Part shown: positions 6,678-51,685 of the stretch, piece after piece
How positions within the stretch are numbered: position 1 is the stretch's first letter
How the letters are laid out: the number at the start of each line of letters is the position of its first letter
Source: Bacillus sp. ISL-45
Lineage (GTDB): Bacteria > Bacillota > Bacilli > Bacillales > Cytobacillaceae
Direction: 5' to 3'
Assembly (NCBI RefSeq): GCF_018613195.1
Contig: NZ_JAGGQQ010000021.1
Location: 1-57,796 of the forward strand
DNA: 57,796 nucleotides
The notes under the pieces: model-generated
Told to the model about the DNA's origin: nothing
Seen by the model: the letters and a program-made list of their open reading frames with translations, nothing else
Database searches by the model: none
Program-made: the position numbers and the translations under genes

Positions 6678-6700
6678 GGAAAAAACACGTGTTTTTTTCC
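6678..6700 (+). terminator. Terminator-like A/T hairpin after the activator unit
   Basis: GGAAAAAAC and GTTTTTTTCC pair around an ACGT loop. The stem is A/T-rich and of modest strength; the T run is part of the stem. It lies 3 bp before a repeat array. Confidence 0.45.
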
Positions 6701-6702
6701 AT

Positions 6703-6856
6703 TCGCCAATAAATCTTGGAAATCGACAATAAAGTTGTGAATTTCGCCAATAAAATCATAATATCGCCAATAAAATCATAATATCGCCAATAAAGTTGTG
6801 AACTTCGCCAATAAAAGTGTGAAAACCGCCAATAAATCTATAATGCCTCCAGTAAT
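6703..6856 (+). repeat. Intergenic repeat array, core TCGCCAATAAA, period about 20.5 bp
   Basis: Core copies start at 6703, 6723, 6744, 6764, 6784, 6805 and 6826, with a decayed copy near 6846. Each has a conserved 11-nt core followed by 9-10 less conserved bases; the copies at 6744 and 6764 are identical over 20 bp. Spacing alternates between 20 and 21, so the array cannot encode a repeated peptide. It lies in the 459-bp gene-free gap before the acyl-CoA operon. Confidence 0.9.
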
Positions 6857-6958
6857 ATCATCAATTAAGTACAAGAACTACCCAGTAAACTGCTAAACGA
6901 GCAATAAGATGAGATTTTTCCCGTTCAGTAACCACCATCTATTTAAATGTCCAAACAC

Positions 6959-6979
6959 AGTGTCCATTTTTCGGACACT
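6959..6979 (+). promoter_or_regulatory. Palindromic upstream activator site of the acyl-CoA operon
   Basis: AGTGTCC and GGACACT form a perfect 7-bp inverted repeat with a 7-nt spacer, about 60 bp upstream of a -24/-12 promoter. This is the placement expected for a sigma54 enhancer-binding protein. An extra TGTCC half-site lies at 6948-6952. Confidence 0.75.
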
Positions 6980-7039
6980 TTGCAGGGCAAACATCCAAAT
7001 TCCTGCTTGGTTGTTGCTGTCATCTTCATTTTTGGAAAA

Positions 7040-7056
7040 TTGGCATAATTATTGCA
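7040..7056 (+). promoter_or_regulatory. Sigma54 (SigL) -24/-12 promoter of the acyl-CoA operon
   Basis: TTGGCAT-N5-TTGCA fits the sigma54 consensus with the invariant GG and GC. The predicted start is near 7067, about 38 bp before the first gene. Confidence 0.85.
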
Positions 7057-7104
7057 TATAAAATGATGAAGGCGTTTTCAAATTAACCAGGGGGGAAGTT
7101 CGGT

Positions 7105-8628
7105 ATGGATATCGGGTCATATTTAGCGCAAAATGCAAGGAAAACACCGGAGAAGCTCGCGATTCAATGTGAAGGCAGGAGCTATACATACAAGCGGTTT
7201 AATGAGGAAGTGAACAAGTTTGCCCACGGACTGCTTAGCCTGGGGGTTAACAAAGGCGACAGGATTGCTTTAATGATGAGAAACTCTGATCAGTTTGTAT
7301 TTGCTTTTTTTGCTGGAGCTAAAATTGGTGCGGTAAACGTGCCGGTGAATTTCCGACTGACAGCATCCGAGGTCCATTACATACTGGAACAGTCTGGCGC
7401 TGTGCTGGTTATTTGCGATGATGAGTTCGAGGATATCATCACTTCTGCACGTGAAGGGACAAATACAGCTCATGTCATTTCGACTGGAACCCCTAGAACA
7501 GTTGGACATTATTCATTCGATAAAGTCCTTTCCGAAAATGCCGATGATCCACAAATTGAAATCAGCAATGATGATGACCTTGAAATCTTGTATACGTCCG
7601 GGACAACCGGCAGGCCCAAGGGTGCTTTGTTTGACCATAAACGAGTTTTCAATGTCGGCCTGACGATGATGATCAGCATGGGAATCAACCAGGAGGAAAG
7701 AATCCTCCATATCGCTCCGCTGTTCCACTCGGCACAGCTTAATCTTTTCCTGATATCAGGCGTCGTTCTTGGGGCAACCCATATCATTCATCGGGATTTT
7801 CATCCGGTTACAACGCTTGAAGCAATCCAGCAACATAAAATCACCCACTTTTTTGGAGTCCCGGCGATGTACAACTTTATGCTGCAGGTGCCGAATGCTT
7901 CTGATTATGACCTATCTTCGATTAAAAGATGCGGCTATGGTGCTGCACCAATGGCTCCGGAACTTGTCCGCAAAAGCATGGAGCTTTTCAGGACAGACCA
8001 GTTTTATAATCTATGCGGTCTGACTGAAGCTGGCCCTGGAGGCATATTGCTGGATCCGGAAGGGCATAAGCACCATTTTGGCAAGGGAGGAAAAGCCGCA
8101 TTCCTGACTGAAGCTAAAGTGGTGAATGAAGAAGGGAAAGATATAAAGCCTGGTGCAGTCGGTGAATTCATCATCAAAGGTGAATCCATTATGAAGGAAT
8201 ATTATAAGAAGCCGGAAGAAACGGCAAAGACAATCAAAAACGGCTGGCTTTATACCGGGGACCTGGCGACGGTCGATGAAAACGGATATATCACTCTCGT
8301 TGACCGGAAAAAAGACATGATCATTTCCGGCGGGGAAAATGTGTATTCAATTGAAGTAGAGGAAGTCCTTTATGAACATCCTGCTGTTCTGGAGGCAGCA
8401 ATCATCGGTCTGCCGGATGAAGTTTGGGGAGAAGCCGTCTGCGCAGTCATTGTGCCAAAGCAGGATGCAATAGTTGATGAGCAGGAGCTTAAGAGCTTTT
8501 GCCGCCAAAAACTTGCAGGCTATAAAGTTCCAAGAAAGATCTTCATCGAAGAGGCGTTGCCAAGGAATGCTTCTGGAAAAATACTAAAATACCAGCTTCG
8601 CCAGAAACTGAATGAAGTGAAGCTTTAA
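7105..8628 (+). CDS. AMP-forming acyl-CoA synthetase 1
   Basis: A 507-residue member of the adenylate-forming superfamily, which activates a carboxylic acid to acyl-AMP and then acyl-CoA. The phosphate-binding motif YTSGTTGRPKG begins near residue 163. The TGD motif, the hinge DRKKDMIISGGENV and the C-terminal ASGKILK lysine loop are present. No membrane segments; soluble cytosolic enzyme of usual length. It is the first gene of the sigma54-driven operon, so it would commit the substrate to the pathway. Fatty or another aliphatic/aromatic carboxylic acids are all possible; three different synthetases in one operon suggest several substrates or chain lengths. A GGGGGAAG ribosome site precedes the ATG. 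Confidence 0.88.
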   Translation: MDIGSYLAQNARKTPEKLAIQCEGRSYTYKRFNEEVNKFAHGLLSLGVNKGDRIALMMRNSDQFVFAFFAGAKIGAVNVPVNFRLTASEVHYILEQSGAVLVICDDEFEDIITSAREGTNTAHVISTGTPRTVGHYSFDKVLSENADDPQIEISNDDDLEILYTSGTTGRPKGALFDHKRVFNVGLTMMISMGINQEERILHIAPLFHSAQLNLFLISGVVLGATHIIHRDFHPVTTLEAIQQHKITHFFGVPAMYNFMLQVPNASDYDLSSIKRCGYGAAPMAPELVRKSMELFRTDQFYNLCGLTEAGPGGILLDPEGHKHHFGKGGKAAFLTEAKVVNEEGKDIKPGAVGEFIIKGESIMKEYYKKPEETAKTIKNGWLYTGDLATVDENGYITLVDRKKDMIISGGENVYSIEVEEVLYEHPAVLEAAIIGLPDEVWGEAVCAVIVPKQDAIVDEQELKSFCRQKLAGYKVPRKIFIEEALPRNASGKILKYQLRQKLNEVKL

Positions 8629-8654
8629 TAGTTTGAGTGAGAGGGGAGTCAATT

Positions 8655-9800
8655 ATGAAACATCCTTATTTAACAGATGACCATGAAATTTTTCGCAGGT
8701 CACTGAGGAAATTTTTAGAGAAGGAGGCATATCCATTTTACGAACAGTGGGAGGAAGAGCGACTGATACCGCGGTCCTTCTGGGAGAAAATGGGCGATCA
8801 GGGCTATCTTTGCCCTGATATCGATGAAGAATACGGCGGCAGTGAAGTCGACTGGGGATTCGCAGTTGTCATCAATGAAGAGCTTGAGCGGGTGGGCTCA
8901 GGCCTGGTTGGCGTAGGGCTGCATAATGACATCGTAGTTCCGTATATCACTTCCTATGGAACAGAGGAGCAGAAAAAACGCTGGCTGCCAAATTGTACCT
9001 CAGGTAAAACCATTACCGCGATTGCAATGACAGAGCCAGGGACAGGGTCGGATCTGGCGAACATACAGACAACAGCAATCCTTGATGGCGACCACTATAT
9101 TTTAAATGGGCAAAAGACTTTCATCACCAATGGAATCCAGTCTGATTTGATTGTCGTAGCCTGCAAAACCGATCCAAAAGCGAACCCCAAGCATAAAGGT
9201 GTCAGCTTGCTGGTCGTTGAGCGGGATACACCTGGTTTTACCCGAGGGAGGAAGCTGAATAAAGTGGGACTGCACTGTCAGGATACGTCAGAGCTTATCT
9301 TCGAAGAGTGCCGTGTTCCAAAGGAAAACCTGCTGGGTGAGGAAGGGAAAGGCTTCCTTTATCTAATGGAAAAGCTCCAGCAGGAACGACTGCTTGTTGC
9401 GATTGCAGCCCAGACCGCATCTGAGGTCATGCTGAAGCAGACGATCGAGTATGTCAAAAGCCGGGAAGCATTTGGCAAGCCGGTCAGCAAGTTCCAGAAT
9501 ACGCAATTCAAGATAGTCGAGATGGCGACAGAAATCGAAATGGGCAGAGCTTTCCTTGACCAGCTGATTGCCGAGCATATCGAAGGCAAGGATGTTGTCA
9601 CAAAGGTATCGATGGCAAAGTGGAAGCTGACAGACAGCGCGAGGAAAATTGCCGCAGAATGCATGCAGCTCCACGGTGGATATGGATACATGGAAGAATA
9701 CGAGATTGCGAGAAGGTTTCGTGATATCCCGGTTGCCAGCATCTATGCAGGAACGAACGAAATCATGAAAACCATCATTGCTAAAAACCTGGGTTTGTAG
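8655..9800 (+). CDS. Acyl-CoA dehydrogenase, LCAD/isovaleryl-like active site
   Basis: A 381-residue FAD-dependent acyl-CoA dehydrogenase that introduces the alpha,beta double bond and passes electrons to ETF. TEPGTGSD near residue 126, KTFITNG near 154 and the C-terminal LHGGYGYMEEY block are diagnostic. At the position where medium-chain enzymes carry the catalytic Glu (YEGT), this protein has YAGTNEI. A Glu in QERLLVA, residue 244, matches the alternative base used by long-chain and isovaleryl-CoA dehydrogenases; this points to long or branched substrates (inference). The start is set at ATG 8655, after GAGGGGAG, and not at an upstream in-frame GTG at 8637 that lies before that site. Confidence 0.9.
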   Translation: MKHPYLTDDHEIFRRSLRKFLEKEAYPFYEQWEEERLIPRSFWEKMGDQGYLCPDIDEEYGGSEVDWGFAVVINEELERVGSGLVGVGLHNDIVVPYITSYGTEEQKKRWLPNCTSGKTITAIAMTEPGTGSDLANIQTTAILDGDHYILNGQKTFITNGIQSDLIVVACKTDPKANPKHKGVSLLVVERDTPGFTRGRKLNKVGLHCQDTSELIFEECRVPKENLLGEEGKGFLYLMEKLQQERLLVAIAAQTASEVMLKQTIEYVKSREAFGKPVSKFQNTQFKIVEMATEIEMGRAFLDQLIAEHIEGKDVVTKVSMAKWKLTDSARKIAAECMQLHGGYGYMEEYEIARRFRDIPVASIYAGTNEIMKTIIAKNLGL

Positions 9801-9832
9801 AAAATCAGATTTTCAGAAAGGAAGATGAAAAC

Positions 9833-10987
9833 ATGCGTGAGGTTGTAATCGTTGAAGCCGTAAGGACGCCTGTCGGCAGAAGGAAGGGTTTATTGAAGGA
9901 TATCAGGCCGGATGAGCTGGCTGCAGGAGTTTTAAAAGAGGTTGTAAAGCGGGCCGGAATCAATGCAGGACTTGTAGAGGATGTCATCCTCGGCTGTGTA
10001 ACACAGTCAGGCGAACAGGCTGGAGATATTGCCAGGGTAGCGGCTTTGACAGCCGGTTTCCCGATTGAAGTACCAGGAACAACGATTGACCGCCAATGCG
10101 GATCGAGTCAGCAGGCAGTCCATTTTGCGGCCCAGGCGATCCTTGCAGGGGACATGGATGTCGTCATTGCCGGCGGCGTGGAGAATATGACACGTGTTCC
10201 AATGGGGTCTAATTATCAGGAAGCCAACCCTTTCAGCCCTAAATTAAGAGAACAATACGAGATGATCCATCAGGGATTATCCGCAGAACGGATTGCGGAG
10301 AAATATGGTTTTACCCGGCGGGAACTTGATGAGTTCTCTGCAGAAAGCCATCGCCGGGCTTTGAAGGCGCAGGCAGAGGGGTATTTTAAAAAAGAAATCA
10401 TGCCCCTCGAGATCACACTCGAAAATGGTGAAACAACTTTGGTGACGGAAGATTCAGGGCCTCGCGAAGGAACGACTCCTGAAGTTTTGGCCGGGTTGAA
10501 AACGGTCTTTAAAGAGGATGGTGTCATCCATGCCGGGAACTCGAGCCAGATCAGTGACGGTGCAGGTGTCCTGCTTTTGATGGACCGTGAAAAAGCTGAA
10601 GAGTTAGGCTTGAAGCCGCGGTTCAAGGTTCACACCAGGGTTGTGGTAGGTTCAGATCCGACATTGATGCTGACAGGACCAATTCCGGCAACGGAAAAAG
10701 TCCTCAAAAAAGCCGGCCTGAAGCTGGAGGATATCGATGTCTTCGAGGTGAACGAAGCATTCGCTCCTGTACCGATGGCATGGCTGAAGGAAACGGGAGC
10801 GGACCCTGCAAAACTCAATCCGAATGGAGGAGCAATCGCGCTTGGCCACCCTCTTGGAGCGAGCGGCGCCCGCCTGATGATTTCGATGATGTCCGAACTT
10901 GAAAGGACCGGCGGACGCTACGGCCTTCAGACAATGTGCGAAGGGCACGGCATGGCAAACGCCACCATTATTGAACGTCTGGATTAA
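9833..10987 (+). CDS. Thiolase (acetyl-CoA acyltransferase)
   Basis: A 384-residue type I thiolase performing CoA-dependent cleavage of 3-ketoacyl-CoA to acetyl-CoA plus a shortened acyl-CoA. The nucleophile Cys89 is in DRQCGSSQQ, His339 in GHPLGASGAR and the second Cys369 in CEGHGMANA; length and order are normal. It is separated by 32 bp from the dehydrogenase gene and has a GAAAGGAAG site. The degradative direction is favoured by the operon content; a biosynthetic role cannot be excluded from sequence alone. A 115-bp gap follows before the next gene, holding only a short GCCAA/TTGGC inverted repeat. Confidence 0.93.
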   Translation: MREVVIVEAVRTPVGRRKGLLKDIRPDELAAGVLKEVVKRAGINAGLVEDVILGCVTQSGEQAGDIARVAALTAGFPIEVPGTTIDRQCGSSQQAVHFAAQAILAGDMDVVIAGGVENMTRVPMGSNYQEANPFSPKLREQYEMIHQGLSAERIAEKYGFTRRELDEFSAESHRRALKAQAEGYFKKEIMPLEITLENGETTLVTEDSGPREGTTPEVLAGLKTVFKEDGVIHAGNSSQISDGAGVLLLMDREKAEELGLKPRFKVHTRVVVGSDPTLMLTGPIPATEKVLKKAGLKLEDIDVFEVNEAFAPVPMAWLKETGADPAKLNPNGGAIALGHPLGASGARLMISMMSELERTGGRYGLQTMCEGHGMANATIIERLD

Positions 10988-11111
10988 AAGAATGCCAACA
11001 TTTATTGGCGCCTGAAAACAGCAAAAGTAAGAAAAATAGGTCACCAATGAGACTACTATAAACTGCTACTCTGTAAAGCATAAAATCGACATTTTATTAG
11101 GAGGAATGCAA

Positions 11112-12683
11112 ATGAGCACAACGATCGGCAAAATCTTTGACCTGACGGTAATGAAATTCCCGAACAAGGAAGCCCTCTATGATGTCCGCAAAAATGTCCG
11201 CTTTACTTATAGTGAATGGAATGAGGAAGTGAACAGGCTTGCCAATGCGCTCCTTGCTGAAGGAGTGAAGAAAGGCGACCGGGTTTCTGCGTTCACATTT
11301 AATACCGAGGAATTGGGTACTGCGTTTTTCGCCTGTGCGAAAATTGGCGCAGTCTTCAATCCTATCAATTTCCGGCTGATGGGAGAAGAGGTCGCCTTTA
11401 TCCTGGGTGACGCAGAGCCAAAGGTCATCCTTTTTGAAAAGGCGGTGGAGCCAGTCATCGCCGCTATTGAAAGGCGATTCCCGCATATCGCTTTCTGGTA
11501 CATCGACAAAGATACACCAGAGTATGCCCAAAGCTATCATGAAAAAGTGAAAGCTGCGGAAACAAAGCCTGTTGATATTGAGGTAGATGAAAACGATCTG
11601 TACGCGATCATGTATACAAGCGGGACCACCGGCAGGCCAAAAGGCGTTATGCACAAGCACCGCAATATGGTCGAGCAGAGTATCATCGTTGTAGGTGCAA
11701 CCAAACTAGGTGCAAAAGATAAAGGGTTGGTGACTGCGCCAATGTTTCACTGTGCTGAGCTCCATTGCGCATTCCTGCCTAGAATCCATGTGGGCGGCAG
11801 CAATGTCATCCTCCATCAATTCGCCCCAAAGAAGGTTCTTGAACTGATTGATTCTGAAAAAATCACGAAGTTCTTCGCGGCGCCAACAATGTGGAATATG
11901 CTTTTGCAGGAGAACCTGGAAGACTATAATATCGAAAGTCTGGAGCTGGGTCTGTATGGAGCAGCCCCTATGGCGCCTTCGCTTGTCCATGCCTGCCATG
12001 ACAAGCTGGGCATCAAGCTGGTCCAGGCGTATGGGATGACGGAGATGGGTCCTGCGATCACCTTCTTATCTGAGGATGACCAGCTGACAAAAGCAGGTGC
12101 TGCTGGCCAGGCTTGCCTTAACCATGAGATCAGGATCGTCCGGCCGAACGAGGATGGCCCATCCGACCCCGACGATATCCTGCCTCCAGGCGAAAGCGGG
12201 GAAATTATCGTCCAGGGCCCATGCATGATGACTGGTTACTTCAATCGTGAAGAGGCTTCTGAAAAAGCGATGTATAAAGGCTGGTACCATTCGGGTGATA
12301 TCGGCTACCTGGATGAACAGGGTTATCTTTGGGTCAAAGACAGGGTGGATGACATGATTATCAGCGGGGGTGAAAACATTTATCCGCGAGAGGTAGAAGA
12401 TGTTCTCCATGCCCATGAAGGTGTCCTTGATGTCGCGATTGTCGGCCAGCCGGATGACCGTTGGGGCGAATCAGTAACTGCTTTTGTCGTGAAAAAAGAT
12501 CACGAGGTCACCGAAGGAGATTTAGATGAGTGGTGCAAAAACAGTGACAGCCTGGCAAATTACAAGCGGCCGCGTAAATATATCTTTGTAGATGCACTCC
12601 CTAGGAATGCAAGCGGAAAGATCCAGAAGTTCATGCTGCGTAAGCAAATGGAAGAACTGTTTTCAAAAGGGCAGCCGACGTAA
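11112..12683 (+). CDS. AMP-forming acyl-CoA synthetase 2
   Basis: A 523-residue adenylate-forming ligase with YTSGTTGRPKG near residue 168, the AYGMTEMGPA motif, TGYFNREEAS, GD and hinge DRVDDMIISGGENIYP, and the C-terminal ASGKIQK lysine loop. It belongs to the long-chain fatty-acid-CoA ligase-like group; the real acid is unknown. ATG 11112 is chosen over the in-frame ATG at 11106 because AGGAGG at 11099-11104 is only 1 nt from the earlier codon and 7 nt from this one. It is clearly different from synthetases 1 and 3, so the three copies are diverged paralogues and not a recent duplication. Confidence 0.88.
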   Translation: MSTTIGKIFDLTVMKFPNKEALYDVRKNVRFTYSEWNEEVNRLANALLAEGVKKGDRVSAFTFNTEELGTAFFACAKIGAVFNPINFRLMGEEVAFILGDAEPKVILFEKAVEPVIAAIERRFPHIAFWYIDKDTPEYAQSYHEKVKAAETKPVDIEVDENDLYAIMYTSGTTGRPKGVMHKHRNMVEQSIIVVGATKLGAKDKGLVTAPMFHCAELHCAFLPRIHVGGSNVILHQFAPKKVLELIDSEKITKFFAAPTMWNMLLQENLEDYNIESLELGLYGAAPMAPSLVHACHDKLGIKLVQAYGMTEMGPAITFLSEDDQLTKAGAAGQACLNHEIRIVRPNEDGPSDPDDILPPGESGEIIVQGPCMMTGYFNREEASEKAMYKGWYHSGDIGYLDEQGYLWVKDRVDDMIISGGENIYPREVEDVLHAHEGVLDVAIVGQPDDRWGESVTAFVVKKDHEVTEGDLDEWCKNSDSLANYKRPRKYIFVDALPRNASGKIQKFMLRKQMEELFSKGQPT

Positions 12684-12701
12684 TGGAAAGGATTTTTTAA
12701 T

Positions 12702-13784
12702 ATGCTGGAAGGAATTAAAATAGTAGACTTCACAAATTATATTCCCGGACCTTTTGCGACCTTGAGACTGGCAGAACTGGGGGCTGAGATTGTCAAAGTC
12801 GAAGCGCCGGAGGGAGACCCGGCAAGGAATACAGGAGAAGGCTATGTATTTAACGCCCATAACCGCGGCAAAAAGAGTATCGTCATCAATCTGAAACAGG
12901 CAGAAGGAAAGCTGCTTGCCCTTGACTTACTCGCCAGGGCGGATGTTGTTGTTGAGAGTTTCAGGCCTGGAGTGATGGATAAGCTTGGACTCGGGTATGA
13001 AGCAGTAAAAAAGGTCAACTCAGGAATCGTCTATTGCTCGGTGACGGGTTACGGCAGGAACGGGGAAATGGGCAGCCTGGGCAGTCATGACCTGAATTAT
13101 ATGAGCTTGAGCGGCGCTTTGGCCCAGATGAAGAACGATAAAGGAAGACCGGTTCATCCAACCCATACTTTTTCTGATTATATCGGGGGACTGGCGGCCA
13201 GTGAGAGAATCCTTGCTGCACTTGTTGCCAGGGGGAAAACTGGCGAAGGCAGCTATCACTGCATTTCCATTGCTGACAGCATGGCAGCCTTGATGGCAAA
13301 CCATGTCCTGATTGAAAAAGAAACTGGCTATCAAAATGGCGTTTCTGTGCTGAATGGTACTGTCATTGGGTATGGGCTGTACGAAACAAAAGGTGCCCGC
13401 TATGTCAGCCTTGGCGCACTGGAACCAAAGTTCTGGCACAACTTTTGTCGAGCTGTCGGCCGGGAGGATTGGCTGTCCGCCCATTATTCCAGCCCGGAAA
13501 ACACAAATCCTGTTTATCTTGAGCTTGTTGATTTGTTTAAAAGCAAGTCGCTCTCTGAATGGGCGGATTTTGGCATGAAGGTCGACTGTTGCCTTACACC
13601 TGTACTTGAGGCGGGAGAACTGGCTCACTATCCATATTGGCGAGAAAAGAATTTTGTATTGCCAGAAGGCCAAATTAAAATGCATGGAGATTTGCCAGCA
13701 CAAGAGGATGCAGCTCCACCGAAAAAAGGAGAACAGACAGAAGAGGTTTTAAGAGATTGGCTCAGTATAAAAAGCAGCAATTAA
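12702..13784 (+). CDS. Class III CoA-transferase (CaiB/BaiF family)
   Basis: A 360-residue family III CoA-transferase. The N-terminus GIKIVDFTNYIPGPFAT and the ELGAEIVKVEAPEGDPAR block are typical; the family includes alpha-methylacyl-CoA racemases, which share the fold. Such enzymes move CoA between carboxylates without ATP, or epimerise 2-methylacyl-CoA. With an LCAD/isovaleryl-like dehydrogenase in the operon, a role with branched-chain or methyl-branched acids is attractive but unproven. It starts 18 bp after synthetase 2. Length is slightly below the 380-400 residues common in the family. Confidence 0.85.
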   Translation: MLEGIKIVDFTNYIPGPFATLRLAELGAEIVKVEAPEGDPARNTGEGYVFNAHNRGKKSIVINLKQAEGKLLALDLLARADVVVESFRPGVMDKLGLGYEAVKKVNSGIVYCSVTGYGRNGEMGSLGSHDLNYMSLSGALAQMKNDKGRPVHPTHTFSDYIGGLAASERILAALVARGKTGEGSYHCISIADSMAALMANHVLIEKETGYQNGVSVLNGTVIGYGLYETKGARYVSLGALEPKFWHNFCRAVGREDWLSAHYSSPENTNPVYLELVDLFKSKSLSEWADFGMKVDCCLTPVLEAGELAHYPYWREKNFVLPEGQIKMHGDLPAQEDAAPPKKGEQTEEVLRDWLSIKSSN

Positions 13785-13829
13785 TAGAGGGAAATACCTA
13801 ATTTAATAAGTGGAAGGGGAATGTCGGTT

Positions 13830-15449: not shown

Positions 15450-15473
15450 AAATTATATGAAAAACATTAAAAG

Positions 15474-15506
15474 CAGCAACGTCTTAATAAACGGTGCTGT
15501 TTTTTA
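15474..15506 (+). terminator. Intrinsic terminator of the acyl-CoA operon
   Basis: CAGCAACGT pairs with ACGGTGCTG (one mismatch) around an 8-nt loop and is followed by six T. Confidence 0.8.
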
Positions 15507-15669
15507 GTTGTAAAATAAAATAATTAAGCCTATAAAAAATTTCAGCACCTAAAAGCAAAATAAATTATTCTCTTTCAATTCAAAAAATTCACCAAAAGAG
15601 GTATTATAGAAGATATAAAAATTCGTAAGCCGAAATAATCAAGGTCGTTTCAACGGGGGTCTTATCTTC

Positions 15670-20731: not shown

Positions 20732-21036
20732 CAAGTAACTTGCTACTCCACAAGATGTATAAAAAATCATCCATTATAAACTTTTGCCGCGGTACATAAT
20801 TCCACTTGATCCATTTTTTAACCTAAACGACACAAGCCCTACCTCTCTTGCATCCTTACGGCTCCGAAGCCGATCCAGTGTGAATAAGTTGTTACCGAAA
20901 AAATAAAAGCAGAACGCCATTAATTGTTTACATAATAATTTATTGTGATTCAAGTTACTTCTTTTTGGCGAAGCTTTACTAGTGTATTTCATTTTCCAGC
21001 AGATGTCAATCATTTTTGCGAACAGTTTTGAAATCC
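20732..21036. other. Gene-free stretch after the alpha/beta SASP gene
   Basis: An open frame of 79 codons exists here on the minus strand (20774-21013), but it has no ribosome site and no recognisable composition. I see no supported gene, RNA or repeat in this stretch. Confidence 0.5.
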
Positions 21037-25794: not shown

Positions 25795-25799
25795 ATGAG

Positions 25800-25829
25800 A
25801 ATCCCCATTTTCACGGGGATTTTTGTTTT
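25800..25829 (+). terminator. Intrinsic terminator of yfhJ
   Basis: AATCCCC/GGGGATT 7-bp stem with an 8-nt loop and a T-rich tail. Confidence 0.85.
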
Positions 25830-25858
25830 GCCAAGGTGAGGATAAAAAAGCCGAAATG

Positions 25859-26105
25859 CGCCTAGTCAGAGGGAGAAACCAGAAAACCGGTAACATAAAC
25901 AGTGGATATGTGCCCGGTTAGAGGGAGAACCAAGAAAACTGGAAACAAAAACAGTGGATATGTGCCCGGTTAGAGGGAGAACCCAGAAAACCGGTAACAA
26001 AAACAGTGGATATGTGCCCGGTTAGAGGGAGAGCCCAGAAAACCGGTAACAAAAACAGTGGATATGTGCCCGGTTATAAGGAGAACCCAGAAAACCGGTA
26101 ACATA
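25859..26105. repeat. Intergenic repeat array, exact 52-bp period
   Basis: Five units; the AGAGGGA segment starts at 25868, 25920, 25972 and 26024, and its decayed form at 26076, each exactly 52 bp apart. Internal units are nearly identical, while the first and last are more diverged. The segment TGGATA recurs at 25903, 25955, 26007 and 26059. The array fills the space between the converging yfhJ and yfhP genes. 52 is not a multiple of three, so no repeated peptide is encoded, although a spurious minus-strand frame crosses it. Confidence 0.93.
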
Positions 26106-26161
26106 AAATATTTTTTTAAAAGATACCATCCCTCTCCATATTCTCTGCGGAAAATCCGCAC

Positions 26162-26188
26162 AAAAAAACCGGGCAATATACGCCCGGT
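26162..26188 (-). terminator. Intrinsic terminator of yfhP
   Basis: On the minus strand ACCGGGC/GCCCGGT form a 7-bp stem with a 7-nt loop, followed by seven T. A second small hairpin (TGCGGA/TCCGCA) follows. Confidence 0.9.
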
Positions 26189-26189
26189 C

Positions 26190-27176
26190 TTAGCCTTCTC
26201 CAGGAAGGAATTCCAATTTCTTTCTTAGTTTTTCCTCACTATAGATCCACCCTGTGTAGGAGCTGAGAATTTCCAGGTCCTTGCTTAGATTCACGACAGC
26301 GACGAATGGATAATGCCCGTTACTGCGATAGCGCAGGTCAATGAACCTGACCTCGTAATAGTCATCATATTCATCGCATTCCCAGCGGTAGACTGGAGAG
26401 AAGGACAGGAACGCTGACAGGTTCTTGTCTTTTTTTGCTGCTTCCAATACCTCGGTTTCCGGGACAGGCACACGATTGAATTGATCGAGAATCCTCACAT
26501 GATGCTTGTGTCCGCGGCCGACAAAGAACTGGTGCTTGTTCATTACTGCGACCCGCCAATGATTAAACCTCATGGTCGGGGCGATGATGATCTCAGTTGC
26601 ATCTGGAACAATATTTTCAACTGCCCTTCTGATGCGAAACTTCATGATAAAGCGGTAAATATAGTAGAACACCAGGATGGCATAGATCGTTAAAAAGGTA
26701 TATCCAGGATGATATCCAAATGCCCAGAGGAACAATCCGACGACATGAAGCGCAAAAATAATCGGGTCGAATGTATTGATTACCCCCAGAGCGACCCATT
26801 TCGACGAGAAAGGACGCAAAGCCTGTGTCCCATAGGCATTGAAAATGTCGACAAAAACATGAAGGAAAACGGCAATAAATGTCCAAATCCATAAATGCAG
26901 CAAATTTGCTTCTGGGTTGAAAAAGTAGATTGTCCCAGAAATAAGCAGCGGCCACAGGAGGACTGCTGGAATCGAATGGGTAATGCCGCGGTGGTTCCGG
27001 ATATAGACAGCATTATTCCTCAATTTCAATACAGTATCGATATCAGGGATTTGCGATCCCACAAGTGTAGCAATCAGAACACTTGAGGCAGTGGCGGTGC
27101 TTCCGCTAACAGCAGGATCAAGCGTAGCTAACCCGCCTAGAGCGAATCCCATCACAACATGGGTTCCAGTATCCAT
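26190..27176 (-). CDS. yfhP: Membrane-bound YdjM-family hydrolase (YfhP)
   Basis: A 328-residue member of the YdjM/LexA-binding, metal-dependent hydrolase family. The N-terminal half has several membrane helices with the family's GTHVVMGFALGG start, the IPDIDTV segment, NHRGITHS and HVFVDIFNAYGTQ, whose His/Asp residues form the putative metal site. The C-terminal 130 residues are a soluble domain. In B. subtilis yfhP was reported to influence expression of the adjacent mutY/fabL/sspE region negatively; that is recalled, not seen here. AAGGAGG precedes the ATG by 8 nt. Divergent from the small gene at 27324. Confidence 0.9.
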   Translation of the reverse strand: MDTGTHVVMGFALGGLATLDPAVSGSTATASSVLIATLVGSQIPDIDTVLKLRNNAVYIRNHRGITHSIPAVLLWPLLISGTIYFFNPEANLLHLWIWTFIAVFLHVFVDIFNAYGTQALRPFSSKWVALGVINTFDPIIFALHVVGLFLWAFGYHPGYTFLTIYAILVFYYIYRFIMKFRIRRAVENIVPDATEIIIAPTMRFNHWRVAVMNKHQFFVGRGHKHHVRILDQFNRVPVPETEVLEAAKKDKNLSAFLSFSPVYRWECDEYDDYYEVRFIDLRYRSNGHYPFVAVVNLSKDLEILSSYTGWIYSEEKLRKKLEFLPGEG

Positions 27177-39265: not shown

Positions 39266-39283
39266 TGGAAGGGGAGAGAGCAG

Positions 39284-40183: not shown

Positions 40184-40203
40184 TGCAATGATATGCAACA
40201 GGA

Positions 40204-40231
40204 AAAAGCAGCTGATAAACCAGCTGCTTTT
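40204..40231. terminator. Bidirectional terminator between the importer and ygaE
   Basis: A perfect 11-bp stem AAAAGCAGCTG/CAGCTGCTTTT with a 6-nt loop; the ygaE stop codon touches it and T runs are present on both strands. Confidence 0.9.
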
Positions 40232-41312: not shown

Positions 41313-41509
41313 GGGAAGTGGATTCCTTTCATTCAGAGACAGAAAATCTCATTCATTAATTTATACTTTAAACCATTTTGTTCAAAACTAAACAATTATG
41401 TACTATACAACGGATTACCAAGAAGTTCAAGCGACAATTTTACGAAAAATAAGCCTTTTTTTAATGTAAGTGGTTACAAGTCGATTAGAGAGGATTTCCC
41501 AAAATCACA

Positions 41510-41665
41510 ATTTCCTGAAATAATACTCAATAATGAGGGGATATTCCTGAAATAGTGAAGGATATTCCTTAACAAGTAGATATATTCCTTAAAAACAAAT
41601 TATATTCCTGAAAATCAAGAGGATATTCCTGAAAGTTCATTGTATATTCCTGAATCAGAATTATT
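41510..41665. repeat. Intergenic repeat array, core ATATTCCTGAAA, period about 20.6 bp
   Basis: Cores begin at 41541, 41562, 41582, 41602, 41623 and 41644 (spacings 21, 20, 20, 21, 21). A diverged TTTCCTGAAA lies at 41511. Two copies have CTTAA for CTGAA. The 8-9 bases between cores vary. It lies in the gene-free gap between ygaE and the glutamate synthase gene, beside the latter's terminator. Confidence 0.92.
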
Positions 41666-41682
41666 CTAATCCTGACCAAAAT

Positions 41683-41714
41683 AAATGGCTCCGTCCAAGT
41701 GACGGAGCCATTTT
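41683..41714 (-). terminator. Intrinsic terminator of the glutamate synthase gene
   Basis: AAATGGCTCCGTC/GACGGAGCCATTT, a 13-bp perfect stem with a 5-nt loop; on the minus strand it is followed by ATTTT. Confidence 0.88.
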
Positions 41715-41720
41715 CATCAA

Positions 41721-46190: not shown

Positions 46191-46356
46191 AAAAATCGGC
46201 TTATAAAGGGTTCCTTTAAGCCGGTTCACCTCCTGAAAAAATAATCTATAACTTGTCGTTTGATAGCTTGGTACATGAGGGTATAACCTTAGACGGGAAT
46301 TTAAAGCAGGGATTTAAAGCGGCCACTTGAATGGCAATCTTAAAATATTAATAGCA

Positions 46357-46385
46357 ATCATATCATAAGAATTTTCAGAAATCAA
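46357..46385 (-). promoter_or_regulatory. Putative sigma A promoter of the glutamate synthase gene
   Basis: On the minus strand TTGATT (46385-46380), a 17-bp spacer and TATGAT (46362-46357). It implies a 5' leader of about 160 nt. Confidence 0.5.
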
Positions 46386-46453
46386 TTAATTATACATTAG
46401 TTTGGATGAAGGATTCTCGTGAATGGGGAGATGGGAATAAAACACTCCTTTAA

Positions 46454-46469
46454 ATGTAAACGTTTTCAT
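46454..46469. promoter_or_regulatory. cre site (CcpA box)
   Basis: ATGTAAACGTTTTCAT matches the catabolite-responsive element consensus WTGNAARCGNWWWCAW at every position. It lies about 70 bp upstream of the putative glutamate synthase -35 and just downstream of hemL. An upstream position usually means CcpA activation; this is inference. Confidence 0.75.
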
Positions 46470-46475
46470 TTCGAA

Positions 46476-46512
46476 TGATAAAAATAACAGACATCAAACT
46501 GATGCCTGTTAT
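46476..46512 (-). terminator. Intrinsic terminator of hemL
   Basis: ATAACAG-CATCA pairs with TGATG-CTGTTAT (13 positions, one mismatch) with a 3-nt loop; on the minus strand TTTTT follows. Confidence 0.85.
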
Positions 46513-46530
46513 GTATAAAAAACTGTATAT

Positions 46531-47826
46531 TTATTCATTGGCCATTGAATAAAATGTCTGGTCAACAGCATGAAGGGTTGCCTCGATGTCTTCCCTTGAA
46601 TGGGCAATGGTCACGAACCATGCCTCATATTTGGAAGGAGCAATGTTGATTCCTTGTTCAAGCATCAGGTTGAAGAAGCGCGCAAACATTTCGCCATCAG
46701 TGTTCTCTGCCTGCTCATAATTCTCGATTTTTTCAGTTGTAAAGTAGATGGTCAATGCGCCCTTCAGACGGTTAATCGTGATAGGAAGGCCATGCTTGCT
46801 TGCTGAAGCAGTGATTCCTTCTTCGAGCATCGTACCGAGCTGGTCCAGATACTCATAGACACCGTCTTGTTTCAATACTTCCAGGCATGCGATGCCTGAG
46901 AGGATGGAAGCCGGATTTCCAGCCATTGTACCAGCCTGATAAGCAGGACCAAGCGGTGCCACCTGTTCCATGATTTCTGCACGTCCTCCATAAGCGCCGA
47001 TTGGCAGGCCGCCGCCAATGATTTTGCCCATAGCCGTCAAGTCTGGCGTAATACCCAGCAAGTCCTGTGCTCCGCCATACATGAAACGGAAAGCAGTGAT
47101 GACCTCATCGAAAATGATCAGCGAGCCAGCCTGATGGGTAAGCTCCTTCACTTCTTCTAAAAAGCCAGGTTTAGGCTCAACAATTCCGAAGTTGCCGACA
47201 ATCGGCTCCACAAGTACCGCTGCAATCTGGTCGCCCCATTTTTCAAGAGCTTCCTTGAAAGGTCCAATATCATTGAATGGCACTGTGATGACTTCCTGGG
47301 CAATGCTCTTTGGAACTCCCGCCGAGTCTGGAGTCCCAAGAGTGGATGGTCCGGAGCCTGCAGCAACCAGAACCAGGTCAGAGTGTCCATGGTAACAGCC
47401 TGCAAATTTGATGATTTTATCCCTGCCCGTATATGCTCGAGCAACACGGATGGTTGTCATAACCGCCTCTGTACCGGAGTTGACAAAGCGGACTTTATCA
47501 AGCGCTGGCATAGCTTCCTTAAGCATTTTGGCGAATTTGACTTCATGTGGGGTCGGCGTGCCGTATAGGACACCTGTTTCTGCGGCCCTTTTGATCGCTT
47601 CTGTAATATGCGGGTGAGCATGTCCGGTAATGATCGGGCCATATGCCGCTAAATAATCGATATATTGATTGCCATCCACATCCCAGAAGTAAGCTCCCTG
47701 GGCACGCTCCATCACGATAGGGGCTCCGCCGCCCACCGCCTTGTACGAACGGGATGGGCTATTGACACCGCCTACGATATGTTCAAGAGCTTCACTATGT
47801 ATCCGCTCGGAATTCGTTCTTTGCAT
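46531..47826 (-). CDS. hemL: Glutamate-1-semialdehyde 2,1-aminomutase
   Basis: A 431-residue PLP enzyme of fold type I that converts glutamate-1-semialdehyde into 5-aminolevulinate, the tetrapyrrole precursor. The [13 protein letters not shown] start, [26 protein letters not shown] and the PLP-lysine region [18 protein letters not shown] are diagnostic. At this locus B. subtilis carries gsaB, a hemL paralogue, so gsaB is the positional orthologue and another hemL may exist in the hemAXCDBL operon. GTAGGAGG precedes the ATG. It lies upstream of the glutamate synthase gene with a terminator between. Confidence 0.93.
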
Positions 47827-47915
47827 CGTAAAACCTCCTACTATATTACTGCTTTTCTATTTTATCATTATTTCTCGTTTTTACAGATTGTTTCACTTTT
47901 CGTTCATTTTCAGCG

Positions 47916-47954
47916 AAAAAAGAAGCCCGAAAGCAGTGAACTACTTTTCGAGCT
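47916..47954 (-). terminator. Intrinsic terminator of the YqjF-like gene
   Basis: On the minus strand AGCTCGAAAAG pairs with CTTTCGGGCT (one bulge, one wobble) and is followed by TCTTTTTT. The stop codon is in the loop. Confidence 0.75.
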
Positions 47955-48681
47955 TAGGCGGCCAGAAAAAGGCCTTTTTGTATTTGTTATAGTGAACGAG
48001 CGGTTGTTGTTCCAGCAGGTCTTGATTGATAAAAGGAATGAGCAGCTCTTGGGTGATCTCTGCACTTGCCTGCTGAAGCTCCCATTTTGTATGGTGGATA
48101 TCCCCACGAACCAGTTTGCTGCTGCGTTTTGTCCACAGACAATATCTTTCTGTTAGCCAATGTTCCAACGTCTCTGGTTTTGCGGAAAATACCTGAGTTT
48201 CTGGTATATATCGCAGCTCCATTTTTGCGTTTCCGCCATCAGCCTGTACACGTCTGGAAATCATCTCAAATTGGTTCTTTTCCTGAAAGCTGATGTTTGC
48301 TTGTTTATAGTTTAGGCCGAAAACTGCCTTTGCTCCAAGAACTGCAAGTAAGTGATTGGCATCCAGCAAAAAGAAATAGACACCAGTCCTGCCGCCGTAT
48401 TTTACATATGTCCTCACATTTACCTCTAGGTAAGAACTAACGCCCGGAATGGATGGAGTAAACCTTCCACGGGTATTCTTAACCTGGAAAGGGACAATTC
48501 CAATCCATGCGCTGCCATCAAAAGTGTCAATCTCAAGCTCTTGAGGAACATGCTCCCTTAATGAAGCGGCAGGCACTGGCCAGTGAACAAATAAGGTGTG
48601 ATGCCATTCCTGTGTCATGACCCATTTCATATCCGGCAAAGGATAGGGGCGGTGGCTCTGGACCAGCAATTCCTTTTCCAT
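47941..48681 (-). CDS. YqjF family protein (DUF2071)
   Basis: A 246-residue DUF2071 protein similar to B. subtilis YqjF. Conserved blocks: HHTLFVHWPVPAASLREHVP, LEIDTFDGSAWIGIVPF, YLEVNVRTYV and GVYFFLLDANHLLAV. The fold is related to acetoacetate decarboxylase but no catalytic Lys can be assigned here; function unknown. The ATG has a AAAAAGGAGGAG site. Monocistronic, divergent from the ABC-2 operon with a 121-bp gap. Confidence 0.87.
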   Translation of the reverse strand: MEKELLVQSHRPYPLPDMKWVMTQEWHHTLFVHWPVPAASLREHVPQELEIDTFDGSAWIGIVPFQVKNTRGRFTPSIPGVSSYLEVNVRTYVKYGGRTGVYFFLLDANHLLAVLGAKAVFGLNYKQANISFQEKNQFEMISRRVQADGGNAKMELRYIPETQVFSAKPETLEHWLTERYCLWTKRSSKLVRGDIHHTKWELQQASAEITQELLIPFINQDLLEQQPLVHYNKYKKAFFWPPKLEK

Positions 48682-48749
48682 TTGATACTCCTCCTTTTTG
48701 TGGTTAAAATACCCTTCAACAGCCAGGAGTAATCAGGCATAGCATTTGT

Positions 48750-48772
48750 TTTAGCCAGAAGGATTGGCTAAA
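48750..48772 (+). promoter_or_regulatory. Inverted repeat upstream of the ABC-2 operon
   Basis: TTTAGCCA and TGGCTAAA, 8-bp arms, 7-nt spacer, ending 30 bp before the first ATG. It could be a repressor operator or a hairpin in the 5' leader; no T tract follows. Confidence 0.5.
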
Positions 48773-48802
48773 CTGTTTGAGTGACCAAAGGAGGAAATAT
48801 TC

Positions 48803-49816
48803 ATGAACGCGATTGAAGTGAACGGGTTGCGGAAGGAATTCAAGGCTTATTCAAGCCGTTCCGGATTATCGGGAGCCTTCCGTGATCTTTTTACACGTAA
48901 TTATAAAATCGTTCCTGCAGTGAACGATATCAATTTTAACGTCAAACAGGGAGAAATGGTCGGTTACATCGGCGAAAATGGAGCCGGGAAATCGACAACC
49001 ATCAAAATGTTGACCGGGATTCTGACCCCGACTTCAGGGAGTGTCATCGTCAATGGCATGAATCCTCACAAGGAAAGGGAAAGATTCGTCCAGACGATTG
49101 GGGTCGTATTCGGCCAGCGTTCTCAGCTCTGGTGGGACATCGCTGTCCAGGAATCGTTCCGTTTGTTGAAGAAGGTCTATAAAGTCTCAGACGCTCAATA
49201 TAATGAGCATATGGATCATGTAATCAAGACACTTGATCTGGAGCCGTTGCTAGATAAGCCTGTAAGAAAGCTGTCGCTTGGCCAGAGAATGCGCTGTGAG
49301 CTTGCTGCCGCGCTGATCCATAACCCTCCGCTCCTTTTCCTTGATGAACCGACAATTGGTTTGGATGTGCTTGTGAAATTAAAAATCAGAGAGTTTTTGA
49401 AGGAAATCAATGAAAAGTACAATACGACGATCCTTCTCACGACTCATGACCTTACCGATATCGAAGCATTATGTGAGCGGGTCGTCATGCTTGATGAAGG
49501 AAACATCATCTATGATGGCGCGTTGAAAAACCTGAAGGAAACGTGGGGCGAAGGGAAGGAAATCAGCTTTGAGTTCCTTGAAAAAGCCGACGTCAGCCGT
49601 CTGGAGACTTTGACAGGTGACCTTGATATCAAGTGGGAGCTGGATGAAAGAAAACAGATTTTCACTGCGGTGACAGGGGACGATGAGGAAACGGTATCGC
49701 AGGTAATCGCACGTACAGTTGCCGCCTATAAGGTTAGGGATGTAAAAATCAATGAGCCTTCCACAGAAGAAATCATCCGCAATATCTATGATAAAGGGAT
49801 GACAAAGCATGGATAA
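48803..49816 (+). CDS. ABC-2 type transporter ATPase
   Basis: A 337-residue ATPase with Walker A GENGAGKST, GVVFGQRSQLWWD Q-loop, signature LSLGQRMR, LFLDEPTIGLD Walker B and TTHDLTDIE H-loop, followed by a 100-residue C-terminal extension. This variant, with KIVPAVNDINF and the QRSQLWWD segment, accompanies permeases of the ABC2_membrane_6 type. Together with the next two genes it forms a complete exporter of unknown substrate. The permease gene start overlaps this stop by 8 bp. AAAGGAGG precedes the ATG. Confidence 0.92.
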   Translation: MNAIEVNGLRKEFKAYSSRSGLSGAFRDLFTRNYKIVPAVNDINFNVKQGEMVGYIGENGAGKSTTIKMLTGILTPTSGSVIVNGMNPHKERERFVQTIGVVFGQRSQLWWDIAVQESFRLLKKVYKVSDAQYNEHMDHVIKTLDLEPLLDKPVRKLSLGQRMRCELAAALIHNPPLLFLDEPTIGLDVLVKLKIREFLKEINEKYNTTILLTTHDLTDIEALCERVVMLDEGNIIYDGALKNLKETWGEGKEISFEFLEKADVSRLETLTGDLDIKWELDERKQIFTAVTGDDEETVSQVIARTVAAYKVRDVKINEPSTEEIIRNIYDKGMTKHG

Positions 49817-50600
49817 ATATATCGAAATGATTCGCATCCGATTTTTGATGATGTTGGCGTACAGGACCAATTATTATACAGGGATCTTGATTTACAGCAT
49901 CAATATCGGAGCTTACTACTTTCTTTGGAATGCGATTTACGGCGGGAAAAGTGAAATCGAAGGCTTGAGTGCCGTCCAAATGACGACATATGTGGCGGTT
50001 GCCTGGATGGCAAGGGCGTTTTATTTTAACAATATCGACCGGGAAATGGCGACCGAAATCAAGGAAGGCAAGGTTGCCGTCGAGTTGATCAGGCCATATA
50101 ACTATCTCGGAATGAAAACGATGCAGGGACTGGGCGAAGGCATATTCAGACTGTTCTTCTTCTCGGTGCCAGGCATGGTCATTGTTTCCTTGATTTTCCC
50201 TATGGAGTTTTCAGCAGATGCGGCGACCTGGGGATTTTTCATGATTTCGATTGTGCTCAGCTTTCTCATCAACACACAATTGAACCTGCTGACGGGAATT
50301 ACCACTTTCTTTCTATATAATAATACAGGCCTGATCCGAGCCAAGCGTGTACTGATTGACTTGTTTTCAGGATTGCTCCTGCCGATCAGTTTTTTTCCTG
50401 GATGGGCACAGGATATCATGCGCTTCCTTCCGTTCCAGGGCATCAGTTATATTCCAAGCATGATTTTTACCAATGGATTTACTGGAAGCCAGGCAGTTGA
50501 AGGGCTTCTGCTCCAGACTGCATGGGTTTTAATACTGGTGCTCCCGATCCAGATTCTATGGTCCGTTGCTAAAAAACAACTGATCATACAGGGAGGGTGA
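49809..50600 (+). CDS. ABC-2 family permease 1
   Basis: A 263-residue permease with six membrane helices (LLMAYRTNYYTGILIYSINI, TTYVAVAWMARAFYF, VELIRPYNYLGMKTMQGLGE). This is the ABC2_membrane_6/DUF990 pattern. Overlaps the ATPase gene by 8 bp and is followed 3 bp later by the second permease gene, so the three are translated from one mRNA. The two permeases probably form a heterodimer. Confidence 0.88.
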   Translation: MDKYIEMIRIRFLMMLAYRTNYYTGILIYSINIGAYYFLWNAIYGGKSEIEGLSAVQMTTYVAVAWMARAFYFNNIDREMATEIKEGKVAVELIRPYNYLGMKTMQGLGEGIFRLFFFSVPGMVIVSLIFPMEFSADAATWGFFMISIVLSFLINTQLNLLTGITTFFLYNNTGLIRAKRVLIDLFSGLLLPISFFPGWAQDIMRFLPFQGISYIPSMIFTNGFTGSQAVEGLLLQTAWVLILVLPIQILWSVAKKQLIIQGG

Positions 50601-50603
50601 CGA

Positions 50604-51389
50604 ATGTTTTACATCAGCATGTTTTTTCAATATGTCGCCCAGTATATGAAGACTAGGCTCGAATACCGGGCAGATTTGATTGTTGAGATCTTTTCAGATT
50701 TATTGTTCCAGGCTGTCAACCTGATTTTTATCCTGGTGGTATTCGATCATACCGAATTCCTGAACGGCTGGAGCAGGGATGAAATCATCTTTATTTACGG
50801 TTTTTTCCTTGTGCCTTATGCCCTGTTCTCCGCTTTTTTCAATATTTGGGATTTCAATGAACGGTATATTGTAAAAGGTGAGCTGGACAGGATTCTGACA
50901 AGACCGATTCATAGCTTGTTCCAGATCATTCTCGAAAGGATGGAGCTGGAGTCATTGTTCGGGGCCGTAACCGGACTGGCTGTCATGTTTTATGCCGGTA
51001 GCCGGCTTGGTCTTGAGATGAGCTGGTCAGATCCTTTCCTGTTCATTTTATTCGTCCTGGGCGGGGTTCTTGTATACGCCGGCATATTCGTTATGATTGC
51101 CTGCATCAGCTTCTGGGCAGATGCTCGGACCTCGATCATGCCGATGATGTACAATATTGGCAACTATGGACGCTACCCGGTAGATATCTATAACAAGGCA
51201 ATCCGGTTTGTATTGACCTGGATTTTGCCATTCGCTTTCGTCGGCGTCTATCCGGCAGCTTACTTCCTGGGCCGCGATGAGTGGTACGGTTACTCATTTT
51301 TGACACCAGTGATCGGGCTTGTGTTTTTCAGCCTGTCTGTTTTCATCTGGAATGAAGGCGTGAAAAGATACCGGGGAGCCGGGAATTGA
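50604..51389 (+). CDS. ABC-2 family permease 2
   Basis: A 261-residue permease, homologous in layout to the preceding one: RADLIVEIFSDLLFQAVNLIF, IIFIYGFFLVPYALFS, GELDRILTRPIHSLFQII. Six membrane helices. GGGAGGGTGACGA precedes the ATG and overlaps the stop of permease 1. Likely partner of permease 1 in a two-permease ABC-2 exporter. A G/C hairpin with T tail follows. Confidence 0.88.
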   Translation: MFYISMFFQYVAQYMKTRLEYRADLIVEIFSDLLFQAVNLIFILVVFDHTEFLNGWSRDEIIFIYGFFLVPYALFSAFFNIWDFNERYIVKGELDRILTRPIHSLFQIILERMELESLFGAVTGLAVMFYAGSRLGLEMSWSDPFLFILFVLGGVLVYAGIFVMIACISFWADARTSIMPMMYNIGNYGRYPVDIYNKAIRFVLTWILPFAFVGVYPAAYFLGRDEWYGYSFLTPVIGLVFFSLSVFIWNEGVKRYRGAGN

Positions 51390-51407
51390 ATAGTTTGATA
51401 TCAAGCT

Positions 51408-51440
51408 GCGGCCGAGTGTAGGCCGTGGTTTTTTGTTTTG
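51408..51440 (+). terminator. Terminator of the ABC-2 operon
   Basis: CGGCC/GGCCG 5-bp core stem (GC extended by a mismatch) with a 7-nt loop, then six T and a further T-rich stretch. Confidence 0.65.
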
Positions 51441-51460
51441 TGGGTAGTACCCGAATTTAT

Positions 51461-51685
51461 TAGCTGATGGATACGTGAAACGGGCTTGTAGTGGGGAAAG
51501 CGCTATCCATGGGCTTGATGGAGACACATTTGGGGCCACTCGAAGGAAAAAACGTTATCCATGGGCCCGATGGAGACAGGAAAAGAGGGAATCAGTAGAA
51601 AAAGCGCTATCCACAGGCTTGATGGAGACACGAAAAAGATCCACGCGAAGGAATAGCACTATCCATAAGCTTGATCGAGGCTGGA
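51461..51685 (+). repeat. Intergenic repeat array, exact 52-bp period
   Basis: TATCCA starts at 51504, 51556, 51608 and 51660, each 52 bp apart. Each unit has a conserved part of about 28 bp (GCGCTATCCAT then GGCTTGATGGAGACAC) and a more variable part of about 24 bp. A decayed partial unit (GCTGATGGATACGTGAAA) precedes the array. It fills the gap between the ABC-2 terminator and the channel gene. Because 52 is not a multiple of three, the frames crossing it are spurious. Confidence 0.93.

Follow-up and report, generated by a model that had tools for sequence, protein, structure and literature searches.

The subject of this analysis is a set of short-period tandem arrays in the non-coding DNA of Bacillus sp. 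ISL-45. The window, that is the whole stretch of DNA that was analysed, is one entire contig of 57,796 nucleotides (NZ_JAGGQQ010000021.1) from the draft genome of this strain (4.6 Mb, 27 contigs). A preliminary description of the window had listed four arrays with periods of about 20.5 or 52 nt, each next to a terminator-like hairpin, and had suggested that they form an undescribed class with a shared role, such as blocking read-through, absorbing supercoils or docking a protein. The four arrays do exist, three of them being found by Tandem Repeats Finder (TRF) and the fourth only with relaxed TRF scoring. The list was incomplete, as there is a weak fifth array, and further repeats lie at 8-171 and 301-461. 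The arrays and the features beside them are the following.

3178..3236, no strand assigned: weak 21-nt array, behind a terminator at about 3134-3159
6676..6702, forward strand: inverted repeat forming the head of the CGCCAATAAA element, CTGGAA-N15-TTCCA, which lacks one base of the usual TTCCAG-TT
6704..6836 (from 6703 by TRF), forward strand: array 1, 20-21 nt, seven cores at spacings of 20, 21, 20, 20, 21 and 21 nt
25797..25824, forward strand: predicted terminator of yfhJ (WVELL protein), upstream of array 2
25844..26108 (from 25868 by TRF), no strand assigned: array 2, 52 nt, about 5.1 copies
26165..26191, reverse strand: predicted terminator of a convergent YdjM-family gene, on the far side of array 2
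41539..41654 (end between 41654 and 41675 depending on the scoring), no strand assigned: array 3 (TRF), 20-21 nt, core TATTCCT
41683..41713, reverse strand: predicted terminator behind the glutamate synthase gene gltA
51403..51431, forward strand: predicted terminator of an ABC-2 transporter gene
51497..51679, no strand assigned: array 4, degenerate 52 nt, about 3.5 copies (TRF with relaxed scoring only)

All cores of array 1 read CGCCAATAAA, except the second, which reads CGACAATAAA. The hairpin at 6678, previously taken for a terminator, consists of a stem followed by TCGCC, has no T-run and was not called as an intrinsic terminator; it is the head of a dispersed element. No head was seen at array 3, whose family is present at two more places in its own genome and whose place is occupied in congeners as well. 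The unit of array 2 contains the base-centred inverted repeat CCGGTT..AACCGG (score 6, p 0.08) and that of array 4 TCCAT..ATGGA (score 5, p 0.32), and the exact motif GTC-N19-GAC described below is absent from both. One further copy of the array 2 family, 75% identical, was found on another contig of the same genome (L022). Array 4 has no other copy in its own genome; the same family occurs in G017 and different families in other congeners. At the gap orthologous to that of the weak array, 21-nt-class arrays were found in three congeners (G018, G010 and G008). Arrays 2 and 4 show the constant repeat of 51-53 nt that characterises published 52-nt satellites, for which at least four repeats are required; array 2 has about 5.1 and array 4 about 3.5.

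Both size classes had already been catalogued, so that the class cannot be called undescribed. Subirana and Messeguer reported satellites of 20-21 and 51-53 nt in Bacillus, with several unrelated families per species and with a function unknown there (PMC8161180). In B. selenatarsenatis (now Mesobacillus), 30 arrays of 20-21 nt and 49 of 51-53 nt were counted, and its satellites were common to B. boroniphilus and B. subterraneus. The authors proposed a polymerising protein or small RNAs, observed that short signals and their reverse occur within one repeat and reported no sequence conservation. Their species signals AARGACA, ATGACAC and AAAGCTGTC contain GACA/TGTC. The words terminator, intergenic, palindrom, hairpin and downstream are absent from the main text of that paper. 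Not stated there, and new here, are the headed six-core element, the constraint on its cores, the re-occupation of orthologous gaps and, for the 52-nt unit, the base-centred dyad, the motif GTC-N19-GAC and the 10.4-bp rhythm. No later work on the place or symmetry of these arrays was found in the literature searched.

The two quantised periods were confirmed in larger samples. Intergenic DNA was screened in 1.26 Mb of the ISL-45 genome (about 27%) and compared with five dinucleotide shuffles. It holds 32 arrays of 51-53 nt vs none in the shuffles, and the 52-nt class is therefore beyond doubt; for 20-21 nt there were 16 arrays vs 14 summed over the five shuffles, about six-fold over chance. 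A larger sample of 2.46 Mb was drawn from four genomes, each sampled in part, with arrays taken as non-coding if their coding overlap was below 0.5 by the gene calls of this analysis; both the gene calls (hexamer scores) and the terminator calls were made within it. In this sample the best non-coding arrays number 72 of 51-53 nt, 48 of 20-21 nt and 39 of 40-42 nt, with peaks at 52 (57 arrays), 21 (36) and 41-42 nt (32), the last being double of 20.5. The two periods that dominate the non-coding repeats of the ISL-45 genome, 20-21 and 52 nt, span roughly two and five helical turns. The sample contains 87 arrays of 51-53 nt (69 of 52, 13 of 53 and 5 of 51 nt), which group into 35 families at less than 62% identity, although the families are not independent of one another. 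Like the satellites of Subirana and Messeguer, the arrays thus show the same two periods, a non-coding position and several unrelated families within one genome. The short conserved signal that marks the published 20-21-nt class is represented by the core, which is spaced by 20 nt in 209 and by 21 nt in 156 of 434 cases. Arrays of clustered regularly interspaced short palindromic repeats were rejected as an identity, as the whole 52-nt unit repeats, instead of identical repeats alternating with unrelated spacers; cas genes were not searched for.

The 52-nt unit contains an inverted repeat that is significant (p<0.05) in 53 of the 87 arrays and in 13 of 24 published units. Its arms vary by 4.6% vs 12.6% elsewhere in the unit and were the less variable part in all 54 arrays with a good repeat (54/54), whereas in a column-shuffled control the arms were lower in 10 of 19, that is, no different. 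Among 38 distinct units with a length of exactly 52 nt, of which 20 represent own-genus families and 18 are published, the dyad is centred on a base pair in 34, four are ties and none shows the opposite parity. The same was seen in 9/9 units that share no 7-mer, in 14/15 that share no 8-mer (one tie), in 36/36 even-length arrays with a good repeat and in 58/62 even-length arrays overall (four ties), whereas in 820 shuffles neither parity prevails (267 each, 286 ties). The two exceptions in the published set have unit lengths of 54 and 50 nt. A constant spacing between the arms was not found, the centre distances ranging from 13 to 26. The fixed parity of the loop points to a symmetric protein, as a free RNA or DNA hairpin would be indifferent to an odd loop. 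Common descent of all 52-nt families could alone keep the parity if insertions and deletions were barred, and would still require selection on length and arms.

When aligned on this axis, unrelated units share TGTC at positions -13 to -10 together with its mirror image. The information amounts to 12.1 bits in 19 own-genus units vs a null of 4.9 (standard deviation 0.6) and to 10.0 bits in 15 published units vs 6.0 (standard deviation 0.9), the null coming from 12 permutations, for which fewer restarts were used than for the actual data. Without use of any axis, GTC-N19-GAC was the top or joint top of all combinations of 3-mer and gap in both sets, being present in 13 of 35 own-genus families and 7 of 24 published units (shuffle maxima 5 and 4). 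The AA/TT steps of the unit are raised at the 10.4-bp harmonic, at a percentile of 0.80 for the 87 non-independent arrays and, more trustworthy, of 0.70 for the 35 families (p 5e-4) and 0.72 for 27 published units (p 2e-4), which replicate the rhythm; the background is 0.54 in random intergenic 52-mers and 0.49 in coding ones, and none of the other AA/TT harmonics (12 examined) was raised. GG/CC steps follow the same rhythm in published units (0.75, 24 units, p 1e-6), and AA/TT and G+C steps lie in antiphase within the unit.

Array 1 belongs to a dispersed element that consists of a head and usually six phased cores. The head, CTGGAA-N15-TTCCAG, was found by pattern in 98 of 152 distinct arrays, and some of the other 54 show near-misses; the 98 headed copies and the 90 that could be oriented include orthologues and come partly from the best 80 of 110 matching stretches. 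In 97 of the 98 the head sits exactly 2 nt before the first core, the window copy being of a class with 1 nt, and in 89 the loop is 15 nt long. Six cores are present in 53 headed copies, 54 have a length of 111-113 nt, and the spacings start with 20, 21, 20 in most. The arms of the head are nearly invariant and show no covariation. At the place of array 1, cores were found in 12 of 17 congeners, in all 12 with a head and in varying number. Among the 90 oriented arrays the head faces the upstream stop codon in 46 vs 20, and only 2/90 headed arrays with both neighbours called lie in divergent gaps vs a background of 285/1153.

The CGCCAATAAA pattern occurs at 20 places in the own genome, and its exact pair pattern in 20 of 21 same-genus genomes vs none of 40 others. 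The only same-genus genome without the exact pair, G007, is also the most diverged at the compared loci (75-79% identity). Among the best 80 of 110 stretches, the pattern recurs in records of Mesobacillus subterraneus, M. selenatarsenatis and M. boroniphilus, and Mesobacillus is therefore the probable genus of the strain. Mesobacillus-type arrays are also carried by records named Chryseobacterium sp. ISL-80 (L112, L127 and others) and Cytobacillus oceanisediminis DE0166 (L129, L130 and others), which may be misnamed. Arrays of 20-21 nt with a core of the CGCCAATAA type were found in records of Metasolibacillus, Sporosarcina, Allobacillus and Alkalibacillus (L107, L124, L139, L158 and L184), and the core may therefore predate the genus. 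Outside the Firmicutes, a Tannerella metagenome bin (L155) contains a 21-nt array with CGCCAATAAATGAAATATTGG. An origin of the element from plasmids or phages was not supported, as a distant blastn search of plasmids and phages gave no match; four stretches matched in viral contigs, and of the two inspected one has two cores (L384) and the other is an 11-bp tandem (L385).

Comparison between species shows that the cores are constrained. At four orthologous gaps, divergence was 3.4% in cores, 24.6% in spacers and 19.0% in flanks, with cores conditioned in one species only, and at the place of array 1 in 12 genomes it was 5.8, 24.0 and 21.9%. Looser core calling gave 5.5, 24.9 and 18.9% for the four gaps and 10.3, 25.8 and 21.3% for the array 1 place. 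For the TATTCCT array the values were 4.2, 27.9 and 16.1%, conditioned on cores in both species. Under neutral decay of dispersed repeats, the cores would not have been spared.

The orthologous gaps are re-occupied by different arrays. Loci were examined for 12/18 at the place of array 3, 10/18 at that of array 2 and 13/18 at that of array 4, the right side being shown by orientation. The array 4 place holds 52-nt families in two, six and two genomes, a 20-21-nt-like array in one and almost nothing in two; the array 2 place holds three kinds of 52-nt array and one 21-nt array; and the array 3 place holds TATTCCT arrays in seven genomes, 52-nt arrays in two and another dispersed repeat in two. 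The last, in G016 (L222) and G017 (L218), has the terminal inverted repeats CTGTTGATT..AATCAACAG. Of 274 gaps common to G018, G010 and G008, 237 lack an array, 10 have one in a single species, 9 in two species and 18 in all three, vs 199.9, 66.5, 7.3 and 0.3 expected if independent. The size class was kept in 24 of the 28 gaps with at least two arrays and mixed in four. After removal of related and ambiguous pairs (the thresholds for class and relatedness drop two to three ambiguous pairs per comparison), unrelated arrays still share gaps with odds ratios of 42.9, 20.7 and 53.8. When restricted to non-divergent gaps of at least 100 nt with a terminator, the odds ratios are infinite, 10.2 and 9.2 with small counts (tables [[42,1],[0,3]], [[41,4],[3,3]] and [[37,4],[4,4]]; p 3e-4, 0.028 and 0.017). 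This supports the shared genomic niche that had been suggested for the window. Neither a target duplication nor a precise insertion boundary could be read in four gaps aligned for empty sites.

The tie of this niche to terminators held in part. Arrays lie closer to the gene end than under random placement (Kolmogorov-Smirnov p 9e-4 for 52 nt and 5e-10 for 20-21 nt), the median distance from terminator to array is 48 nt in the 52-nt class and 31 nt in the 20-21-nt class, and 27/50 and 29/38, respectively, lie within 50 nt of the terminator. Divergent gaps are avoided (11/77 and 4/55 vs 275/1049). Enrichment for terminators is only modest. Counting terminators predicted at most 70 nt from the gene end, 60/83 gene ends beside 52-nt arrays (72%, p 0.026) and 44/56 beside 20-21-nt arrays (79%, p 0.005) have one, vs 540/904 (60%) in array-free gaps of 100-1500 nt; a smaller first sample gave 25/38, 17/19 and 276/514. 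The preliminary description had named terminators in nearly all array-free gaps as an outcome that would speak against a common class, and the 60% found goes half of that way. Thus, the niche behind genes is real, and its specific link to terminators is modest and could reflect promoter avoidance.

From these observations we lean towards the view, as somewhat probable, that the arrays of either class offer a series of phased sites to a putative symmetric protein that binds and perhaps wraps DNA. With this spacing, the sites within each array would face the same side of the double helix. For arrays of 20-21 nt this would be achieved by direct repeats of a 10-bp core (CGCCAATAAA or TATTCCT) every two turns, and their commonest family would be a discrete element with a dyad head, the arms of which are two turns apart, followed by usually six cores. 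The 52-nt unit would represent one two-fold symmetric site repeated every five turns, with the consensus TGTC-N19-GACA, the dyad on a base pair and W-rich stretches phased at 10.4 bp. As half-sites 22 bp apart within the unit and 30 bp between units add up to five turns, all of them would lie near one face. A symmetric, probably DNA-bending or wrapping protein might assemble along the array, and arrays might be kept in the space that follows a transcription unit, where one array can take the place of another; we infer a boundary role between the units.

Several points weigh against this view. The binding protein is putative only, the enrichment at terminators is modest as given above, and the two 52-nt arrays of the window are weak members, judged by the scores and p values of their inverted repeats. 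Exact GTC-N19-GAC is found in 35 of 87 arrays, neither of the window arrays among them, and in 2 of 14 units that share no 8-mer, so that much of its signal may be due to common descent. No phasing of AA/TT was seen within single units of 20/21 nt (0.54, p 0.43). Static curvature was rejected as the whole explanation, as the curvature predicted by a wedge model was not significant, or marginal at best, at the level of families (0.58, p 0.12; for a fixed twist 0.61, p 0.044). Furthermore, where both bases of a stem pair differ within an array, pairing is restored in 10 of 18 cases, and a nucleic-acid hairpin would fit this as well; 52-nt satellites are also reported as transcribed in B. coagulans (PMC8625621).

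The strongest alternative, which we still regard as rather unlikely, is that the arrays are selfish or neutral tandem repeats which recombination has spread and which persist only downstream of terminators, where they harm neither genes nor promoters, the terminator link then being passive. The avoidance of divergent gaps, including that by headed arrays, would fit, as would the unrelated dispersed repeat at the array 3 place in G016 and G017 and the finding that dispersed families with differing copy numbers have been gained and lost. However, cores are kept in place while spacers drift, arms are conserved in every array with a good repeat, and unrelated arrays share the restricted gaps 9-10-fold or more over expectation, albeit with small counts.

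It is improbable to a higher degree that the arrays act when transcribed, as RNA or cruciform hairpins serving as stacked terminators, RNase III substrates or sponges. A role as small RNAs has been proposed in print, transcription in B. coagulans is in line with it, the inverted repeats are frequent in own and published units alike, and several arrays have terminator-like hairpins every 52 nt. Against this, the loop varies in length and not in parity, TGTC keeps a fixed distance from the dyad, and the 10.4-bp AA/TT rhythm is present. Covariation expected of an RNA hairpin was weak, with compensatory changes in 10 of 3748 cells, and GT (83) and AC (72) mismatches are about equally common, which indicates no preference for an RNA strand, the strand having been taken without regard to gene orientation.

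That the arrays are elements of the repetitive extragenic palindromic (REP) or bacterial interspersed mosaic element (BIME) kind, moved by a REP-associated tyrosine transposase (RAYT), is very unlikely: they are extragenic, lie behind genes and have inverted repeats, and Y1_Tnp genes occur in 19 of 21 genomes searched, but G005 has 73 core-pair matches without a Y1_Tnp match, and the unit sequences vary freely, unlike the REP consensus, so that the conserved palindrome with a RAYT expected of such mobility was not found.

Two side observations concern other parts of the window. The repeats at 8-171 and 301-461 have units of 15 and 69 nt, lie at the contig start, where the assembly breaks, and probably encode an acidic repeat protein. 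The sole Rfam match is to the small RNA BsrC at 20817-20903 on the forward strand (71.7 bits).

Returning to phased sites for a symmetric protein, related systems are known. REP and BIME elements of enterobacteria and pseudomonads are said to bind several proteins. They resemble the arrays in being palindromic, in lying outside and behind genes and in forming clusters with regular spacing; the arrays differ in their fixed 52-nt period, free sequence and lack of an obligate RAYT. STAR elements of Staphylococcus (PMC3532100) are likewise direct repeats in intergenic DNA; they have spacers specific to each locus, expand and contract, and are stable within lineages, but STAR loci differ in place per species, whereas here orthologous gaps are re-occupied across species. 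As to the kind of protein, LrpC and RemA are octameric DNA-wrapping proteins of Bacillus (PMC8481266), and a protein of this type would explain symmetric, bent and poorly conserved repetitive targets; the two are named only as examples of the kind.

In its furthest form, put forward tentatively and as possible at best, one conserved DNA-wrapping protein would bind a degenerate TGTC-N19-GACA site in all 52-nt satellites of Bacillales, with dyads every five turns, and form a chromatin-like fibre between units, and a second protein would occupy the 20-21-nt arrays, the two being mutually replaceable. It has been open since 2020-21 why some Firmicutes hold hundreds of repeats of exactly 52 nt without an apparent common sequence. 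The cryptic dyad, the parity rule, the 10.4-bp rhythm and the re-use of gaps turn the question of why 52 into one of five turns between symmetric protein sites. If true, the arrays would be a Gram-positive counterpart of REP and BIME elements or of a chromatin fibre at gene ends.

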